A stretch of 50,466 bases of DNA from a bacterium (GTDB taxonomy: Bacteria; Vulcanimicrobiota; Xenobia; Xenobiales; JADMJV01). Position 1 is the first letter of the stretch. Each line of letters begins with the position of its first letter. Position numbers and translations under genes: made by a program. The stretch spans positions 1-50,466 of the forward strand of contig JASBRJ010000029.1 in the NCBI GenBank assembly GCA_030149525.1, read 5' to 3'. Of this stretch, positions 42,040 through 49,903 are shown in pieces. The notes beneath the pieces were generated by a model. It made no database searches and was not told the DNA's origin. It saw only the letters and a list, made by a program, of their open reading frames with translations.

Positions 42040-42201
42040 GTGGTCTGTCACGTAAAGATTTTGGGCCGAGACCGCCCCAGAGGCGGCCGTAGCCTCACCG
42101 ATCTTTCCTCACGTGCGGCCAGGCACGCCGCGGAAAAACCGGTGAGCCCACAACCACCTCTGGAACGCCCTCGACTTCAAAATCTTTTTGTGACAAAACA
42201 C
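42040..42201. mobile_element. Candidate MITE with IS630-like inverted ends
   Basis: This 162-bp non-coding block is bounded by 24-nt inverted arms (42040-42063 and 42178-42201) that match at 20 of 24 positions. Its outer end GTGGTCTGTCA is identical to the left end of the IS630-like element at 50351. The right end abuts TA (42202-42203), the target dinucleotide of IS630/Tc1-type elements; the left flank is TC. The interior folds on itself: CCAGAGG/CCTCTGG, CTCACCG/CGGTGAG, TTTCC/GGAAA and CGTGC/GCACG pair in nested order around a GGCCAG loop. It lies between two convergent genes. A structured RNA or bidirectional terminator remains possible. Confidence 0.6.
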
Positions 42202-42578
42202 TAGAGCGGTCGATCAAAAGAAGAATCGCCGCCTTTCACAGTCCCGCTTTGAAGGAGAGAACGGAAGGCCTCCAAGTCTTCGGTAGGTTCGAAAGAGAGG
42301 CCCACGGCAAAATGACCGGGACCGACCCGCTCCCCCCAGGCTCGCTTGCCTCGAAGTTCGTAAACCCGCGAGTCACATTTCAGGTCGATGTCTACCAACT
42401 CAAAATCCTTTTGCTCAGCCACAATGTATCGAATCCCGGTGGAGGAAATATTGAGAATTTTGGCCTCGCGGCCTTCCACCACGAGCTCGAGCGGCAGAAC
42501 TTGGTTCCCCGTCCTCTCCTCGTCGCGGCGGTCGCCGAGCTCCAGGTGCAGCGCTAGTTCATCTCTTTGTTCAGGCAT
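42201..42578 (-). CDS. Single-domain PilZ protein
   Basis: This 125-residue protein is little more than a PilZ domain. The motif DRRDEERTG (about residues 16-24) is a partial form of the RxxxR c-di-GMP-binding element, and NISSTGIRYI (about 43-52) is the (D/N)xSxxG element; GHFAVGLSF closes the barrel. ATG 42578 has AAGGAG upstream. It follows the ATP-grasp gene at 42615 after 36 bp and is probably in that operon, which could link the pathway to c-di-GMP. Its TAG stop uses the TA target and the first base of the palindromic element, so the present C-terminus may have been set by that insertion. Confidence 0.78.
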   Translation of the reverse strand: MPEQRDELALHLELGDRRDEERTGNQVLPLELVVEGREAKILNISSTGIRYIVAEQKDFELVDIDLKCDSRVYELRGKRAWGERVGPGHFAVGLSFEPTEDLEAFRSLLQSGTVKGGDSSFDRPL

Positions 42579-42614
42579 AATCTCTCCTTTTTACTCTCCC
42601 CTCCACAACTCGCC

Positions 42615-43811
42615 TCAGGCCGGTTTGGCCGTAGGTGGCGCGACCGCCAGAATGTCGGCCTCAATCTTGAGTCGGTAGCGGTTCATCAGGTCGGTCACAC
42701 GATCGAAGTCCTTACTGCGTACGATCACCCCGGCATGATAATCCTCGCCCATTTTCCAAAAGACTTCCTGGTCGGAGAAAAAGGACAGCTCGGGCGCCTG
42801 TTGCTTGGAAAGACAGAGCAGAATTCCCCCGTTATAGCTGTGTGAACGCTTCACTTTATATTTCTTGCCCTGCACTTGAGCAATTTCAACTCGAGCCCAT
42901 TCCCTCCAGAGATCGAGGCCCGCCTCACCGTCAACCAGACGGTCGATGTGAGCACCACCAACTCGACCGGCGAGCTCAAGAAAGTAGAGTTCCCCCGTCT
43001 CTTCGTGGCGAATGAACTCCACATGGGTCACACCGTAAGGCAGTCCCATGGCCTTGATACAAGCTTTGTTAGTCTCCAGCAAAGGTTTGTAGGCCTGATC
43101 GAAGTCCGGGACGGTCTGGGACAAGAAAATGCCTCCGCCGTTCCAAACATCGAACGGCGGGCGCCAGTAGCGATGAGGAGCGGCGAAGAGTACCTTGTCG
43201 TTAAAGACGATGGAATCCACATGAAAGACCTGGCCTAGTATGTAGGCCTCCATCAGAAAGTGGCTGCGGCGATCTCCCAGGTGCTCCAGCCAATCCCACA
43301 CCTCGGAAGGCTTATAACACTTTTTGATCTGGACCGAACCGGCTTCCGAACGGGGCTTGATGAACCACGGTCCTGGAACCCTTTCCATATATTCGGCTAT
43401 TTTTCGATCGTTGAGCGTATGGACAAATTGGGGAATTTGAAGACCGGCTTCTTCCGCCTGCATTCTCATGGCGAGCTTGTCTCTGAAGTAGTGGGCCGTG
43501 GAAGCTCCCATTCCGGGAATTCTCATGTGCTCTCGTAGGAAGGCGGCTGTCTCCACAGCGTAGTCGTCAAGGGGAATGACGGCATCAAAGTTTCGCTCTC
43601 GCGCCAGGTAGCAAACGGCGTTGAGCAGATTATCGGTTTGCTCCAGATTCTCCACAAAGAAGATTTCATCGATGCAGTCGGGCCAGGATTTGTCCTTCAA
43701 CTCGACCTTAGAAACAAGAACGGTGCGTACACCCTGCGCGCGGCACTCCTCAAGAAACGACCGACCCTTAACGTAGTTGGCCAGGAACAAGAATGTGAGT
43801 GGTTGGGACAC
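42615..43811 (-). CDS. ATP-grasp ligase (BacD/carbamoyl-phosphate-synthase-like)
   Basis: This 398-residue ATP-grasp enzyme has a Rossmann-like pre-ATP-grasp domain (FLFLANYVKGRSFLEECR, FDAVIPLDDYAVETA). ATP-binding motifs follow: GPWFIKPRSEAGSVQIK, LMEAYILGQVFHVDS and VTHVEFIRHEETGELYFLELAGRVGG with metal-binding Glu/Asn-type positions. Members such as BacD join amino acids into dipeptides through acyl-phosphate intermediates. The start is GTG 43811, with AAGGAGG 8 nt upstream. It is the fifth gene of the ligase/peptidase block, 65 bp after the RimK-like gene. The substrate is unknown. Confidence 0.85.
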   Translation of the reverse strand: MSQPLTFLFLANYVKGRSFLEECRAQGVRTVLVSKVELKDKSWPDCIDEIFFVENLEQTDNLLNAVCYLARERNFDAVIPLDDYAVETAAFLREHMRIPGMGASTAHYFRDKLAMRMQAEEAGLQIPQFVHTLNDRKIAEYMERVPGPWFIKPRSEAGSVQIKKCYKPSEVWDWLEHLGDRRSHFLMEAYILGQVFHVDSIVFNDKVLFAAPHRYWRPPFDVWNGGGIFLSQTVPDFDQAYKPLLETNKACIKAMGLPYGVTHVEFIRHEETGELYFLELAGRVGGAHIDRLVDGEAGLDLWREWARVEIAQVQGKKYKVKRSHSYNGGILLCLSKQQAPELSFFSDQEVFWKMGEDYHAGVIVRSKDFDRVTDLMNRYRLKIEADILAVAPPTAKPA

Positions 43812-43876
43812 GGTGTGAGCCTCCTTTGAGTTACTTTCGCACCGCAACCATACACGACCGGGACCTCATGCTCCTA

Positions 43877-44713
43877 CTACCCGGCTCGCATTTCGAGAAA
43901 ATCCACAACCAGCCCGGGGAGAAGAGGCGACGCTGTCAATCCAGGGGATGAATTCACCTCCACCACTAGATATCCGTTTTCGGACTCCAGCAGATCGACA
44001 CCGGCGATTTCAAGCCCCAGTGCCCTGGTGGCTTGCTCCGAGATATCTTTGATCGCTTCGGTGAGCTCCACCTGGTGGGCCTTGCCACCAAGATAAACAT
44101 TCGACCGAAACTCGTCTCCCGACTGGGCCTGGCGTCGCGCTGCCAAGACGGCTTTCCCTCCAAGAACGAGAACCCTCACATCCGCACCCTTTGAGTGAGC
44201 GACGAACTCTTGCAGAACAACCGGCCCCTCCCGCTCCCCCACCACATCGAGAACAGACCGAAGACTACGGAGACTTTCCACCAGGCAGACTCCCTGCCCC
44301 TTGGTGCTCAGCGGAAGCTTGAGAATCCAAGGCGGACCGGACAAGGCCGAAAGGGCCGAAGAAAGCTCCTGGCGGTGGCTCAAAAGCACGGTTTTCGGGA
44401 TGGCGACGCCCGCTCCCGCTAATACGGAATAGGTGATGCCTTTGTGTCGAGCCCGACGGATCGGGACTGCAGAGTTGAGACAGAAAGCACCCTGTCCCTC
44501 AAGAATCTGAAGCTCGTCGATGGCAGAATCGGGGGCCGCCCCACCCACCCGCGCGTAGACCACATCTGGTAAGTCCTCGATGATCTGGCCGGGCACGATG
44601 TTGAGACTGTGGGGCCGTACCAGTCTCAATTCGTGCCCTCGGGACGCCGCCTCATCGCTTATCAACTGATTTCCGGGAGAATTGACGAGATGGGAGTAAA
44701 GCCAAATCCTCAA
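43877..44713 (-). CDS. RimK-family ATP-grasp ligase
   Basis: This 278-residue enzyme closely follows the RimK/LysX pattern. It has an N-terminal domain of ~90 residues, ILKLPLSTKGQGVCLVES (ATP loop), VVLQEFVAHSKGADVRVLVLGG, the RimK hallmark ARRQAQSGDEFRSNVYLGG, and AGVDLLESENGYLVVEVNSSPGL with the metal-binding Glu and Asn. RimK-type enzymes add Glu or other amino acids to a C-terminal or side-chain carboxylate of a protein or small molecule. Its start overlaps the stop of the preceding ATP-grasp-like gene by 4 bp. No carrier protein such as LysW is seen nearby, so the acceptor is unknown. Confidence 0.9.
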   Translation of the reverse strand: MRIWLYSHLVNSPGNQLISDEAASRGHELRLVRPHSLNIVPGQIIEDLPDVVYARVGGAAPDSAIDELQILEGQGAFCLNSAVPIRRARHKGITYSVLAGAGVAIPKTVLLSHRQELSSALSALSGPPWILKLPLSTKGQGVCLVESLRSLRSVLDVVGEREGPVVLQEFVAHSKGADVRVLVLGGKAVLAARRQAQSGDEFRSNVYLGGKAHQVELTEAIKDISEQATRALGLEIAGVDLLESENGYLVVEVNSSPGLTASPLLPGLVVDFLEMRAG

Positions 44714-46188
44714 AGAACCTCCTCTACCTCGTTGCCGGCTCTTATCTCCTCCATGAGAGACTCGTCGTTGTTGAGGGTCGCGTAAACCTTCAAGCGAAAC
44801 TTACCCTTAGAGGTGGTGAGATTACAGGCCATCTTGTCGATGGCGATAGTCGCCAGTACGGCCTGAACGTATCCCTTCAACAGGTCGTCCAAGCTCAATC
44901 CCATGGTGTTGAAATCTCGGCGATCCATCAGCACCAAACGGCTGGTCTCACTGCCCCAGTTATCCACTCCTTGGGCCACCGAAAGATTGGTTCCGAGCAT
45001 ACTCCAGGAATCGACCGAACCGTCCAGCTTATTTTGCAGCGGCGTGGGTGCCTTTCGCCCGTAAACAGCCATGGGAAAGAATCCCGACTCGTCGGCTCCG
45101 ACCATCATTCGGGCATCGGCCACGTAGATTTCATTCTTTCGATTGGGCAACATTCCCACATGATAAAATCGACCTCGTGCGCCCCTCGAACTCCACAGAT
45201 AGTTTCCAATGAGCGACTGAACAATAAACTTGTTGTAGCTGTATGAACCCTTCATAAACTCATTGAGTTCGGCTTCCGAGGTTATGGTAAAGACACCCTG
45301 ACCGGCATTGCTGTAGGGAATTTTCACCACGGCGTGCCCGCCCATTTTTCTCACCAGAATGGGAATTTCACCCTTGCTCACCTCTCGAATGGTTTCGGGG
45401 ACCCTGATCTGAAGCCCGGTGCCGGCAAGTTCCGAATTCAGCAGATCGTAGGCGGTTGAAGCGACCGCCTTATTCCGCCCTCCGGCAAGACAAGCCTGGA
45501 TCGGATTGAGCAGCAAAGTCTTTGTATGAAGCGGAATTCTGTTCCACGGTTTTTGAGTGACATATCGAAAAGCTGCCCGAACTCTTTCCCACTCTCCGCT
45601 TTCCGTACGAACCTCCATATAGCGGTCCTTGAATCTTACCGGGGGATCGGGATCGCTCCCTTTGTAAGTGGCGAGATAGACCGGTTCTTGGAAGTGATTG
45701 GCCATGGCGGCGGCGTATCCGGAGTTCTCCATCTCATTCTTGTCGTAGACCACCGCAAGAACACCGCCTTCACGCCCCTTTTCCTTCCGAATCTTCCGAA
45801 AGTAATAGTCCATGACTCGGGAGACCAGAGCCCTGTAACCACCTTCTTCCTCTTCATCCGTCACCAGAGGCATCGACTTTTGACCCGAAGGACAGGAGTT
45901 GGTTTCGATCAAGACCATCTCCCGGTGTCCTTCGGCCGTAGTCACATTGAAGAGATCCACCCCGGCCCAGCGGAAAAAACGAGGTTGATAGGCCAGTAGC
46001 TCGGCCAGAACGATCGGGTCCACTTTGGGATTCAGGTGGCAATATCGACTCACCAGGCGTTCGGCCGAGAACCTCATGAAAAACGACACCATGGGGTGAA
46101 TCGTTGCGTTCAGCGCTTTCGGATAAAAATGACGCGAGGGCTCAAATTCTCCGGGCCTAACGACCGTCACACAACTACTTCCTACCAT
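44710..46188 (-). CDS. Unusual ATP-grasp-like protein
   Basis: This 492-residue protein is not a close match to a family I know. It has ATP-grasp-like elements: VLIETNSCPSGQKSMP near residue 93, which resembles the metal-binding ExN strand, and HAVVKIPYSNAGQGVFTI near 280, which resembles the ATP-binding Lys plus glycine-rich loop. In this order (metal strand before ATP loop) the fold would be circularly permuted or divergent. ATG 46188 has GGAGG 5 nt upstream and lies inside the end of the P1 peptidase gene, so the two are coupled. The position among ligases supports an amide-bond-forming role. Confidence 0.6.
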   Translation of the reverse strand: MVGSSCVTVVRPGEFEPSRHFYPKALNATIHPMVSFFMRFSAERLVSRYCHLNPKVDPIVLAELLAYQPRFFRWAGVDLFNVTTAEGHREMVLIETNSCPSGQKSMPLVTDEEEEGGYRALVSRVMDYYFRKIRKEKGREGGVLAVVYDKNEMENSGYAAAMANHFQEPVYLATYKGSDPDPPVRFKDRYMEVRTESGEWERVRAAFRYVTQKPWNRIPLHTKTLLLNPIQACLAGGRNKAVASTAYDLLNSELAGTGLQIRVPETIREVSKGEIPILVRKMGGHAVVKIPYSNAGQGVFTITSEAELNEFMKGSYSYNKFIVQSLIGNYLWSSRGARGRFYHVGMLPNRKNEIYVADARMMVGADESGFFPMAVYGRKAPTPLQNKLDGSVDSWSMLGTNLSVAQGVDNWGSETSRLVLMDRRDFNTMGLSLDDLLKGYVQAVLATIAIDKMACNLTTSKGKFRLKVYATLNNDESLMEEIRAGNEVEEVL

Positions 46189-47287
46189 TGTTTCCTCCAG
46201 GGTGGTCTTCTAGCAAGGTCTTCACCAATTCTATGGGGATCTGCCGAGCCTTGCGATCGTTACTCCCCACCATGGTTTCGGATTGAAACAGAGAGTTCAG
46301 AATCGCCTCTTCCGTAGCGTCGACGGTCGCCTCGTATAGGGGATTGATAAAAGCATCCCCCAGCACTCTCAGACGATAGACCTTCTTCTTGGGCTTTCTG
46401 GGGATCCTGTTAGCCGTGGAGAAAGCGACGATAATCTCTCCCGACCCGTGAGCGGCATAGGAGCCCATCCGGGCGATTCCAAGAGCCGCCCGCTTGGACA
46501 AGCGACTGAGCTGGTGAGGCAAAAGTGGGGCGTCGGTAGCAACCACTGTGATGATACTTCCAGCGATTCCAGGCCTGGCCTGGTAGTCGAGTTGCTCTTT
46601 GATCTGAGGACCGAGCAGAGCGCCTCCCACTCGAAGGTGTTCCAGCATTCCGAAGTTACTCTGCACCAGCACCCCCACCGTGAAGCCACCCTCTGATTCG
46701 TCCAGAATTCTTGAGGAAGTTCCGATACCGGCCTTCAGATCGCAGGTCATCATGCCGGTACCTCCCCCCACAGCCCCCTCCTCGACCGGCCCGCCTTTGG
46801 CTGCTCGGATAGCCTGCACCGCGTGGCGAGGGGCCACATGATTTCCGCCAATATCGTTGAGCCAGGAATCATCACACTCGCCCACCAGCGGAATGATGAC
46901 ATCATGCTCGCGGCCGATGCTGGGGTGTTCTTCCAACATGTGGTCTATCACCCCGGCAGACACATGTCCTACGCTCAAAGTATTGGTCAGAGCTATTGGA
47001 GTTTCCAACAATCCCCACTCTAGAACTTGGGTGAGGCCGGAAACTTCCCCAGCACCATTGAGCACAAATCCGCCGGCATGGAAGCGCTCATAGAAAATGT
47101 TCCCTTCATTGGGCAAAATGGCCGTCACGCCGGTTCTGACCGGTCCGACTCCACGCTTGAGTTTGCCCTCCCCTGAAATGAGCGTGACATGACCGACTTT
47201 GATTCCTTCCACGTCGGTAATGGCATTGTAGTGGCCGGTGCGGTGCCGGCCTATGACGATGCCGATATCTCTTGCTCTACAGGGCAT
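46175..47287 (-). CDS. P1-family self-processing aminopeptidase (DmpA/BapA type)
   Basis: This 370-residue N-terminal nucleophile hydrolase matches DmpA/BapA: NAITDVEGIKVGHVTL near the start, NTLSVGHVSAGV, GAVGGGTGMMTCDLKAGIGTSSR, GFTVGVLVQSNFG and AGSIITVVATDAPLLPHQL. In the family, cleavage before Ser of the GS pair frees the catalytic N-terminal Ser; here G243/S244. DmpA removes D- and L-amino acids and BapA cuts beta-peptides. There is no signal peptide, so it is cytosolic. ATG 47287 has AAGGAAG upstream and directly follows the tandem ligase stop. It may trim or recycle the product of the neighbouring ligases. Confidence 0.93.
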   Translation of the reverse strand: MPCRARDIGIVIGRHRTGHYNAITDVEGIKVGHVTLISGEGKLKRGVGPVRTGVTAILPNEGNIFYERFHAGGFVLNGAGEVSGLTQVLEWGLLETPIALTNTLSVGHVSAGVIDHMLEEHPSIGREHDVIIPLVGECDDSWLNDIGGNHVAPRHAVQAIRAAKGGPVEEGAVGGGTGMMTCDLKAGIGTSSRILDESEGGFTVGVLVQSNFGMLEHLRVGGALLGPQIKEQLDYQARPGIAGSIITVVATDAPLLPHQLSRLSKRAALGIARMGSYAAHGSGEIIVAFSTANRIPRKPKKKVYRLRVLGDAFINPLYEATVDATEEAILNSLFQSETMVGSNDRKARQIPIELVKTLLEDHPGGNNGRK

Positions 47288-49267
47288 TTACGGCTTCCTT
47301 ATCTTTCTTCGAAATCGTTTAACCGCAGGCGTCAGTATTTCTTTCACCAGCGCTTTGTAATCCATGCCGCAAGCTTTAGCGAGAACGCACAGATCACTGA
47401 AATCCGGGCTCAGCCCGGGCAAGGGATTGCACTCCACAAAGTTGACTCTCCCTTGGGCATCGAGTCTCAAATCGATCCGGGCCACGTCTCGACAGCCCAG
47501 AGCGGCAAACGCTCCACGCGCTGTTTCAACGATGTTCTTTTCCAGAGCCGGAGTCAGCTTGGCCGGGGTTTCAAAACGTATAGGGGTGGTATCGTCGAGC
47601 TTATCCTGAAACGAGTATATGGGGTTCTTCTTCTCAGCCGGCAGCACGATTTCCATAATCGGCAGAACTCGAGGCCGACTCCCACCTCCCAACAGACCGA
47701 CGGTGAACTCCCGACCCGGCAAGAAGTCTTCCACCATCATGGGTTGACCGTAACGCTCCGTCATCTCCTTGACCAAGGCGGTTAACTCCTGGGGAGTCGA
47801 AACCACGCTCCGCGGAAGGATGCCCTTGGAACTCCCCTCGGCAACCGGCTTGACGATGACAGGATATCGAAACTTCTCGGCGTTGAGCCCCTTGCAGGAT
47901 TGCACGACCTGGAAATCCGGCGTTAGGAACCCGGCCTGCCGAACCAGCCTTTTGGCCAACCCTTTGTCGTGACAAACAGCCAGAGGTCCGGCCTCCGAAC
48001 CTGTAAACTCGATGTCCAAAAGCTCCAGCAAAGCAGGCACCTGGGACTCTCGATAGCGACCCTTGAGACCCTCGGCGATGTTGAAAACGATGTCGATGCC
48101 ACCGAGATTGCCGGCAAGCTCCGGAGTCGCTTCAAGAGTTGTGACGGGATAACCGGCCTCCGAAATCGCCTGGGCCAGAGCGTTGACCGTGGTCTCGGAG
48201 TCGAACTCGGCCTCCTCGTCTCGATCAAGCGTTGAAGCTCGTCTCCTAAGGTTGTAAACCAACCCAAACTTGGGGACTCTCTTTTTGCTGTTCTTGGGCG
48301 TCGGAGGTTTTCGCTTCAAAGCGCTCTTTAGAATTGCGTCAAGGACGTCCGGAACATTATCCAGACCTTTCTCGGCCGCTCCCAGGTAGATGGCAGCGCC
48401 AGGCTCTAAAGAAGGGAGTGCGTTCACTTCAATAAGAACCGGATGACCGCTTTTGTCCACCCGGAAGTCGACCCGGGCAAAATCCCGGACTCCCAGTCTT
48501 CTGAGGGCGAGTTTTGTGAATTTCGTTAACAGTCGCTTGGTTTTTTCGTCCACTTTCGCCGGACAGATCACCCGGACGTCGTCGGGGCGATTCTGCTTGA
48601 GATCGTAGTCGTATATCGGATGTTCGGCATCACAATTGTCAAACTCGTAGTGGGCAGGCTCCAGCACACCGACCTTTTCGATATAGGGAACAGTGACGTC
48701 TAAACCCGTGATAAACTCCTCGATCAAGAGGCCGCTGGGATACTCCGCCAGGAGCCGCGAAACCGTCTTCTCCAAGGCCACCTTGTCGGCGCAGATGGAG
48801 TCCGAGGTGATGCCTTTCGAACTACCCTCGAAGTTGGGCTTAACGATCACGGGGAAATTCAGTCGAAAATCCTCCAGTTGAGCTTTGTCCAGGAGAAAAA
48901 GAGAGGCTGGAACCGTTATGCCTACTTGGGACAGAGCCAGATTGGTGAGATACTTGTCCAGCGTGAGGTTGCATACGTAAGAGTCGGACCCGGTGTAGAG
49001 CAAGCCGAGTTGATCCAGAAGTTCAGGATAAAAGCCCTCCCGCCCACGACCGACCGTTCCTTCTGCGGTGTTGAGAACCACCTCCGGCTGGAGTGCCTTC
49101 AGTTTGCTCACCAACTGGTCGAGATGACCTGCAGCGTCCAAGGGAGTAACACGATGCCCTTTCGATTCCAAAGCCTCCACAATAGCCCGAATCGTTTCAG
49201 GCGTGTCGAACTCGGCTTGTTCAGGGACAGGCTCTAGCTGTACGTTATGCAAAAATGCGATATTCAT
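47288..49267 (-). CDS. Tandem D-alanine-D-alanine-ligase-like protein
   Basis: This 659-residue protein is two Ddl-like enzymes fused head to tail, joined by a Lys/Pro-rich linker (KRKPPTPKNSKKR, near residue 315). Each half has its own N-terminal domain, ATP loop (VKPNFEGSSKGI and VKPVAEGSSKGI) and metal-binding strand (VDFRVDKSGHPVLIEVNALP and IDLRLDAQGRVNFVECNPLP). Both therefore look active. Ddl is normally a single 300-350-residue enzyme that makes D-Ala-D-Ala. The halves differ from each other, which suggests two distinct peptide bonds. ATG 49267 is preferred to a TTG four codons upstream. A short hairpin lies just before it. It is the first gene of the ligase/peptidase block. Confidence 0.9.
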   Translation of the reverse strand: MNIAFLHNVQLEPVPEQAEFDTPETIRAIVEALESKGHRVTPLDAAGHLDQLVSKLKALQPEVVLNTAEGTVGRGREGFYPELLDQLGLLYTGSDSYVCNLTLDKYLTNLALSQVGITVPASLFLLDKAQLEDFRLNFPVIVKPNFEGSSKGITSDSICADKVALEKTVSRLLAEYPSGLLIEEFITGLDVTVPYIEKVGVLEPAHYEFDNCDAEHPIYDYDLKQNRPDDVRVICPAKVDEKTKRLLTKFTKLALRRLGVRDFARVDFRVDKSGHPVLIEVNALPSLEPGAAIYLGAAEKGLDNVPDVLDAILKSALKRKPPTPKNSKKRVPKFGLVYNLRRRASTLDRDEEAEFDSETTVNALAQAISEAGYPVTTLEATPELAGNLGGIDIVFNIAEGLKGRYRESQVPALLELLDIEFTGSEAGPLAVCHDKGLAKRLVRQAGFLTPDFQVVQSCKGLNAEKFRYPVIVKPVAEGSSKGILPRSVVSTPQELTALVKEMTERYGQPMMVEDFLPGREFTVGLLGGGSRPRVLPIMEIVLPAEKKNPIYSFQDKLDDTTPIRFETPAKLTPALEKNIVETARGAFAALGCRDVARIDLRLDAQGRVNFVECNPLPGLSPDFSDLCVLAKACGMDYKALVKEILTPAVKRFRRKIRKP

Positions 49268-49281
49268 CTGTTTGTCCAATC

Positions 49282-49306
49282 AAAATGGCTCGAGGTAACC
49301 CGAGCC
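49282..49306 (-). terminator. Short hairpin between FAS1 gene and tandem ligase
   Basis: GGCTCG and CGAGCC form a 6-bp stem with an 8-nt loop. On the minus strand it is followed by ATTTTG, a weak T run, and it ends 15-20 nt before ATG 49267. It could be a leaky terminator of the FAS1 gene or a leader hairpin controlling the ligase operon. Confidence 0.4.
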
Positions 49307-49339
49307 AACTCACTCTGCCTCTATGCAGAACTCTCCGTC

Positions 49340-49867
49340 TTAGACGTCTTCTTCCATGTCCAACGGGTCCTGATCCAACTCCACCTGAAAATCGTCGACC
49401 ACATGGATAACAAATCCGTTCCCTTTCAGATCACCGCTCACGACGGTTAGGCCGCCGACAACGAGTTCTTCGTCGACAATCTCGACATCCATCATCTCGC
49501 CCGCAACTGTCTCCACCTCTCGAACTTTGGAAAGCTGAGCGAGCGGCAACATCTGACTGAGCGTATGCCATTGGAGAGCCGCCTCAAGGGCCTCGGGCTT
49601 CGACTTCAGATGAGCATATTCCTGAGAAGTGAGTGACTCAAAGTAAGCCTCACTAGGTATCAAGTATGTCCCCCTGCCTTTATTGAAGTAGGAGGTAAGT
49701 CCTGTCTCTTTGAGCAGGGCAACAAAGCGAGGATGGCCGTCTTTCTCAAGAAGGGCAAGAACTTCCGATGGGTTGAGTTGGGCGGTGGTCGCCGGCGTGC
49801 CCACCCGGGCCGACGAAAGGGACGTATTCAGCACCAGTAAGAGCAACAGATATTTCAGCATTTTCAT
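49340..49867 (-). CDS. Secreted FAS1 (fasciclin)-domain protein
   Basis: This 175-residue protein starts with a signal peptide (MKMLKYLLLLLVLNTSLSSA). One FAS1 domain follows: RFVALLKETGLTSYFNKGRGTYLIPSEAYFESL (H1-like region), LQWHTLSQMLPLAQL and GFVIHVVDDF near the end, where FAS1 proteins have their H2 segment. The tail is acidic. FAS1 proteins act in adhesion outside the cell. ATG 49867 has no Shine-Dalgarno but has promoter-like hexamers ending 7 nt before it. The gene is 72 bp upstream of the tandem ligase on the same strand, so read-through into that operon is possible. Confidence 0.82.
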   Translation of the reverse strand: MKMLKYLLLLLVLNTSLSSARVGTPATTAQLNPSEVLALLEKDGHPRFVALLKETGLTSYFNKGRGTYLIPSEAYFESLTSQEYAHLKSKPEALEAALQWHTLSQMLPLAQLSKVREVETVAGEMMDVEIVDEELVVGGLTVVSGDLKGNGFVIHVVDDFQVELDQDPLDMEEDV

Positions 49868-49874
49868 GGGCGAG

Positions 49875-49903
49875 AGTGTAGTCCCCACGGGGGAGGCTGC
49901 CCA
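49875..49903 (-). promoter_or_regulatory. Possible leaderless promoter of the FAS1 gene
   Basis: TGGGCA (49903-49898) and TACACT (49880-49875) are separated by 17 nt on the minus strand, and the -10 ends 7 nt before ATG 49867. The geometry matches the maf and prfC promoters, but the -35 is a poorer match. Confidence 0.4.

Follow-up and report, generated by a model that had tools for sequence, protein, structure and literature searches.

The window, that is, the whole stretch of 50,466 nucleotides analysed here, encodes two members of a conserved enzyme unit that recurs across bacterial phyla and comprises an undescribed ligase (here UNK), a RimK/GshB-type ligase and an AstE-type hydrolase; the third member is encoded on another contig of the same genome. 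On balance we favour a module of two ligases and one hydrolase, in which a small amide or peptide, perhaps conjugated to a polyamine, is synthesised and recycled. The remaining genes of the presumed transcription unit, for a tandem Ddl-like protein, an S58 peptidase, a BacD-like protein and a PilZ-like protein, are local neighbours without conserved linkage.

Gene set and boundaries of the system

An earlier note had read this region as a single system of five consecutive minus-strand genes, with an S58 (P1) peptidase as its hydrolase. All the reading frames that it named are present, at the coordinates and in the order claimed, as follows.

42201–42578, minus strand: PilZ-like protein, final gene of the presumed transcription unit (weak PilZ match plus motifs)
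42615–43811 (TTG start: 43847), minus strand: BacD-like ATP-grasp protein, local neighbour (weak ATP-grasp profile match)
43877–44713, minus strand: RimK-family ATP-grasp ligase, 278 residues, core member (TIGR00768; nearest relatives are UNK-linked RimKs)
44710–46188, minus strand: UNK, 492 residues, core member (31-member alignment, fold matches, no Pfam family)
46175–47287, minus strand: S58/P1 (DmpA/BapA-type) aminopeptidase, local neighbour (Peptidase_S58 profile, catalytic motifs)
47288–49279, minus strand: tandem Ddl-like protein (DDL2), local neighbour (two Dala_Dala_lig_C domains)
49286–49307, minus strand: terminator-like hairpin between the FAS1 and Ddl-like genes (pattern match only)
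49340–49888, minus strand: fasciclin (FAS1) protein (PF02469, 66.4 bits)

The tight junctions are likewise real: the DDL2 and S58 genes abut (47288/47287), those for S58 and UNK overlap by 14 nucleotides (46188/46175) and those for UNK and RimK by 4 nucleotides (44713/44710). The count of five ATP-grasp modules stands, with the qualification that the UNK module is supported by motifs and fold and lacks a sequence-profile match. For the BacD-like gene, GTG 43811, behind AAAGGAGG, is the probable start, in preference to TTG 43847; translation of the Ddl-like gene may begin at ATG 49267 and not at 49279. The FAS1 gene is probably a separate unit, since the terminator-like hairpin (49307–49286) divides it from the Ddl-like gene; such hairpins are no commoner in the region than in shuffled sequences.

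Both the operon and contig C111, which carries the hydrolase partner described below, match the composition of the genome and show no recent foreign signature. Contig contamination was rejected, the tetranucleotide distance of the operon and C111 being 0.11–0.19 to contigs of their own genome and at least 0.25 to other genomes. A phage or plasmid origin of UNK was also rejected, as the viral contigs and plasmids searched contain no UNK, and PADLOC gave no defence-system match.

What proved misplaced is the boundary of the system: the genes are real and the chemistry sensible, and yet one core partner lies outside the window, and the five-gene set is kept nowhere that was searched, being private to this genome so far as the searches reach. 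No counterpart of the tandem Ddl-like protein was found in 18 relatives (E ≤ 1e-30), S58 is present in five of the 18, and in the relatives' neighbourhoods that were fetched the S58 and BacD-like genes are solitary, without each other, RimK, UNK or PilZ. Neither DDL2 nor S58 occurs near UNK in about 40 UNK loci. These observations argue against a dedicated five-ligase pathway, in which the Ddl-like, UNK, RimK and BacD-like enzymes would act in series to give one short peptide, with S58 trimming it or conferring self-resistance. We regard such a pathway as distinctly unlikely, even though the genes lie on one strand with overlapping or abutting junctions and good ribosome-binding sites upstream of S58, UNK, RimK and PilZ, the catalytic motifs of S58 are intact, and serial action is known for ATP-grasp ligases.

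The tandem Ddl-like protein consists of two full ATP-grasp modules that are 31% identical to each other. Both keep the E-x-N motif, and the N-terminal substrate motif (S-x-E) expected of a D-Ala-D-Ala ligase is absent. A cell-wall D-Ala-D-Ala role appears unlikely from the sequence, because the omega-loop Tyr of DdlB is lost in both halves, being replaced by Gln in one and Leu in the other. Plasmid relatives of the halves are single-module Ddl-like ATP-grasp proteins, found on the NGR234 symbiotic plasmid and other rhizobial plasmids; the NGR234 copy (L084:5893-6903), 35% identical to the second half, adjoins a CapA-family gene.

The S58 protein scores 380 bits against Peptidase_S58 and aligns with 2drh, 3n2w and 1b65. 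Its catalytic motifs comprise the GSIITVVATDAPL nucleophile context, SGE 282 and QSNFG 209, and it has no evident signal peptide, in contrast to some relatives. The BacD-like protein (42615–43847 from the TTG start) gives a weak ATP-grasp match (22 bits; cutoff 27) and falls far short of the alanine-anticapsin ligase BacD model NF053745 (14.4 bits against 850). Its family is expanded throughout the order, with 5 copies in this genome and up to 8 matches per genome (G135–G148); copies in this genome include those on contigs C194, C63 and C147, and are solitary in the neighbourhoods fetched. The PilZ-like protein scores 18.3 bits against a cutoff of 22.5 and keeps the c-di-GMP motifs RxxxR (RDEER) and NxSxxG (NISSTG). 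The links to c-di-GMP and the cell surface that had been suggested from PilZ and FAS1 have adjacency as their one basis. Control of the operon by c-di-GMP via PilZ is thinkable by analogy, because c-di-GMP is a ligand of RimK in Pseudomonas and E. coli and raises the activity of the enzyme (PMC4741518).

Distribution and probable joint origin of UNK and its partners

Searching GTDB genomes for UNK yielded six loci with 49–59% identity, spread over Bacteroidota, a MAG labelled Dadabacteria and one Patescibacteria genome; in one Bacteroidota order UNK is present in 68 of 299 genomes. Among the best 30 Bacteroidota loci, the second ligase and an AstE/aspartoacylase-like gene directly adjoin UNK in 24, both lie a few kilobases off in 5, and neither is nearby in 1; overall, 29 of the best 30 loci carry the second ligase and the AstE-type gene in the neighbourhood. 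When the survey was extended to ten lower-scoring Bacteroidota loci, both partners were found in 3, AstE only in 2, and neither nearby in 5. In the Dadabacteria-labelled phylum the order UNK-AstE-RimK is seen in 3 of 6 loci, with UNK-AstE in two of the remaining three, and the Patescibacteria locus has UNK-RimK. The unit conserved across phyla is UNK together with a RimK/GshB-type ligase and an AstE-type hydrolase. The proposed logic of linked amide ligases and an amide hydrolase is therefore borne out, not as a five-gene system and not with S58 as the hydrolase, whose place in the conserved unit is taken by the AstE-type enzyme. We found no description of this trio in the literature searched; it may be listed in part in Iyer et al. 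2009, a survey reportedly covering such ligase operons.

No AstE is encoded in the window. The same genome does, however, encode an AstE of the partner type on contig C111 (C111:31009-31962; L115:6989-7993), and its discovery weakened the idea that S58 replaces AstE in this genome. The gene adjoins a divergent FHA-domain gene, and futalosine-type menaquinone genes lie upstream of it. The encoded protein shares 61% identity with the UNK-linked AstE from the Dadabacteria-labelled phylum and approximately 39–47% with those from Bacteroidota.

The occurrence of both UNK and AstE was profiled across the phylum of the window. UNK is found in 1 of 149 genomes, and the partner-type AstE only in this genome among 148, the next match having 33% identity (E 3e-21). 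In the UNK tree, the UNK of the window groups with sequences of the Dadabacteria-labelled phylum (support 100/99), and the closest relatives of the RimK of the window are UNK-linked RimKs of that same phylum (46, 40 and 36% identity); plasmid-borne RimKs reach at most 35% among the matches listed. Because the three proteins point to a common source phylum, and UNK and AstE are equally sporadic, these sequence comparisons indicate that UNK, RimK and AstE were probably acquired jointly, and argue that they function jointly. Coincidence, with each ligase serving an unrelated pathway, is an adequate description of the BacD-like and S58 genes in the relatives, but it leaves the repeated UNK-RimK-AstE linkage and co-acquisition unexplained, and we consider it very improbable.

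The nearest curated or solved relatives of the AstE-type hydrolase are DoeB (N-acetyldiaminobutyrate deacetylase) and aspartoacylase, although it scores 80 bits against the DoeB model, whose cutoff is 402.7. The zinc ligands are kept in the hydrolase partners, whereas the NR-motif Arg of AstE/DoeB is replaced by His, Asn, Thr or Ser in 20 of 23. In aspartoacylases and M14 peptidases, the Arg of the N-R motif binds the substrate carboxylate. Since this Arg is lost, the substrate of the hydrolase may have no carboxylate at the corresponding position.

Fold of UNK and the type of the second ligase

UNK represents an undescribed ligase family that has no Pfam or NCBIfam model. Even at E 10, no match to the ATP-grasp families GSP_synth, CP_ATPgrasp or GshA (PF08886) was obtained with Pfam for 31 members or with NCBIfam for 7 members; a separate PF08886 search of one genome matched nothing, its controls included, and is thus uninformative about that genome. 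The sequence motifs nevertheless follow a recognisable order, with E95-x-N97 first, then K289 and the YSNAGQG loop (292–298), and then D358-x-R360. The catalytic-type residues E95, N97, K289, D358 and R360 are invariant across 31 UNK sequences, and YSNAGQG is invariant or nearly so. The metal-binding E-x-N motif is thus N-terminal to the Lys/Gly-rich ATP loop, as in the circularly permuted ATP-grasp ligases, and the ATP loop (K-loop) of RimK aligns with residues 261–313 of UNK.

A structure model built from seven sequences, of low confidence (pLDDT 59, pTM 0.66), agrees with this assignment. Foldseek gives a best E of 6.8e-6, to glutathione synthase, and its best nine rows are glutathione synthetases with effector-like relatives, YgiC and 3n6x. 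VIA-align ranks 3k1t, a putative gamma-glutamylcysteine synthetase, highest, at Z 10.3 over 276 residues. Every one of its top 25 rows is a circularly permuted ATP-grasp ligase, and unrelated rows appear from Z 4.9 downwards. Profile comparison (hhalign) of UNK with E. coli YgiC and Gss was not significant. From the motif order and the model, we conclude that UNK is a probable circularly permuted ATP-grasp ligase of the group that includes the glutathione, glutathionylspermidine and peptide-spermidine synthetases.

The second ligase differs in type between lineages. That of the window belongs to the RimK family (TIGR00768, 178.1 bits; cutoff 143.4) and falls well below the ribosomal protein S6 glutamate ligase equivalog (PRK10446, 140.2 bits against 331). 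The Bacteroidota second ligase is nearer to glutathione synthase (PRK05246, 130 bits; equivalog cutoff 272) than to RimK.

Taken with the match of UNK to 3k1t, this last affinity raises the prospect of a glutathione-like pathway, in which UNK would act as the gamma-glutamylcysteine synthetase and the second ligase as the glutathione synthetase, yielding a tripeptide thiol or a homologue. The scores are nevertheless far under the equivalog cutoffs, UNK has no PF08886 match, and the second ligase of the window is RimK-type; a hydrolase partner is moreover foreign to glutathione synthesis, and the polyamine linkage described below would be left unexplained. We judge this pathway unlikely.

Several gene neighbourhoods have a bearing on a protein substrate. 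In L090:9919-13429, directly downstream of UNK-AstE-RimK, are two retropepsin-like genes, a 7TM inactive-transglutaminase gene and a gene for a rimK_rel ligase, a set like Pseudomonas rloABC (PMC12239564). A small conserved protein (C3), which has no Pfam match and whose C-terminal tail is variable and strongly acidic, recurs beside the trio in Bacteroidota, at L003:6883-7230 and in ten further loci (L040, L059–L062, L064, L071, L073, L075 and L076); it is a possible acceptor or regulator. Together with the RimK family membership, these neighbours would suit protein tagging, whereby UNK and the RimK-type ligase attach residues to a protein and the AstE-type enzyme takes them off again, in the manner of RimK and RimB on ribosomal protein S6. 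Against this, the Bacteroidota second ligase resembles GshB, a small-peptide ligase, no acceptor protein is conserved across phyla, and the relatives of AstE are small-molecule deacylases (DoeB), so tagging too seems improbable. The small amide or peptide remains the reading that we prefer.

Possible products and comparison with known systems

Genes for arginine decarboxylase (SpeA), agmatinase and a deoxyhypusine-synthase-like protein (DHS) lie alongside the trio in 8 loci, in three gene orders, and in L086, from another phylum, agmatine deiminase follows it; this contig has no polyamine genes. On the UNK tree the polyamine-gene label falls in three separate clades and requires at least five changes, a number as low being reached in 36 of 500 label shufflings, so that shuffled labels are nearly as scattered. 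Such scatter argues against simple inheritance from a single event, and also against strong clustering. A GNAT-nitrilase fusion, like deaminated-glutathione amidase or N-carbamoylputrescine amidase, is found near UNK on the opposite strand in L063:4303-5856, L065, L066 and L077. In E. coli, YgiC and YjfC ligate peptides to spermidine (Pederick et al. 2023, as cited in PMC12568646). Because polyamine genes neighbour the trio, and by analogy with these two enzymes, a polyamine is a plausible amine acceptor for the UNK-type ligase.

In the module that we favour, which builds on the observed linkage, co-occurrence, common phylogenetic source and motif conservation, UNK would use ATP to activate a carboxylate and couple this to an amine, a second unit would be added by the RimK- or GshB-type ligase, and the AstE-type zinc hydrolase, encoded on C111 in this genome, would cleave an amide bond in the product so as to turn it over or trim it. 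We infer this order of reactions, as well as the substrates. Most likely the product would be a small metabolite resembling a peptide, in which polyamine or agmatine is possibly incorporated, and the tandem Ddl-like ligase, S58 and the BacD-like ligase may extend or tailor it, or may simply be co-transcribed. A bolder and tentative version, for which we see a modest chance, is that UNK is an unrecognised circularly permuted ATP-grasp family, common in Bacteroidota, that together with the RimK/GshB-type ligase synthesises peptidyl-polyamine (or agmatine) conjugates of a new class, which an amine-recognising AstE-type amidase releases, in a glutathionylspermidine-like cycle assembled from different parts.

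About a fifth of the genomes sampled from one large Bacteroidota order thus encode a ligase of a family for which neither Pfam nor NCBIfam has a model, and the family moves between phyla with two partner enzymes. Current annotation therefore probably overlooks an entire small-molecule or tag pathway. A substrate hypothesis follows directly from the polyamine linkage, and the small size of the trio makes reconstitution in vitro feasible.

Several known systems resemble the trio in part. A small module in which an ATP-grasp ligase is combined with a peptidase to produce a dipeptide metabolite is characteristic of the N-acetylglutaminylglutamine-type trio systems, but the families there (GNAT, asparagine synthase and M42) differ from those of the UNK trio, and the one profile link is a weak TIGR03103 match by superfamily. 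The closest curated and solved relatives of its hydrolase, DoeB and aspartoacylase (AstE/AspA), share the zinc ligands and differ in the NR-motif Arg, which is mostly replaced in the trio. RimK-RimB and the RloABC system of Pseudomonas likewise oppose a RimK-family ligase with an amide or peptide hydrolase, and both kinds of cluster are adjacent in L090; the set of the window, however, has no retropepsin or 7TM-transglutaminase, its hydrolase is of the zinc AstE type, and UNK is an additional ligase. For UNK itself the best structural match, 3k1t (PF08886 GshA type), is only 15% identical, and PF08886 matches none of 31 UNK members. A further parallel is with the E. coli peptide-spermidine ligases YgiC/YjfC and with the glutathionylspermidine synthetase/amidase Gss, to which UNK is linked by the circularly permuted ATP-grasp fold, as judged from its model, and by the polyamine genes near several UNK loci. 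UNK has no significant sequence relation to these enzymes, and is distinguished by the conserved motifs IE[TN]NS.PSG.K and YSNAGQG and by its RimK/GshB partner; and whereas the Gss ligase is paired with a fused CHAP amidase, the UNK ligase is accompanied by a separate AstE-type hydrolase.
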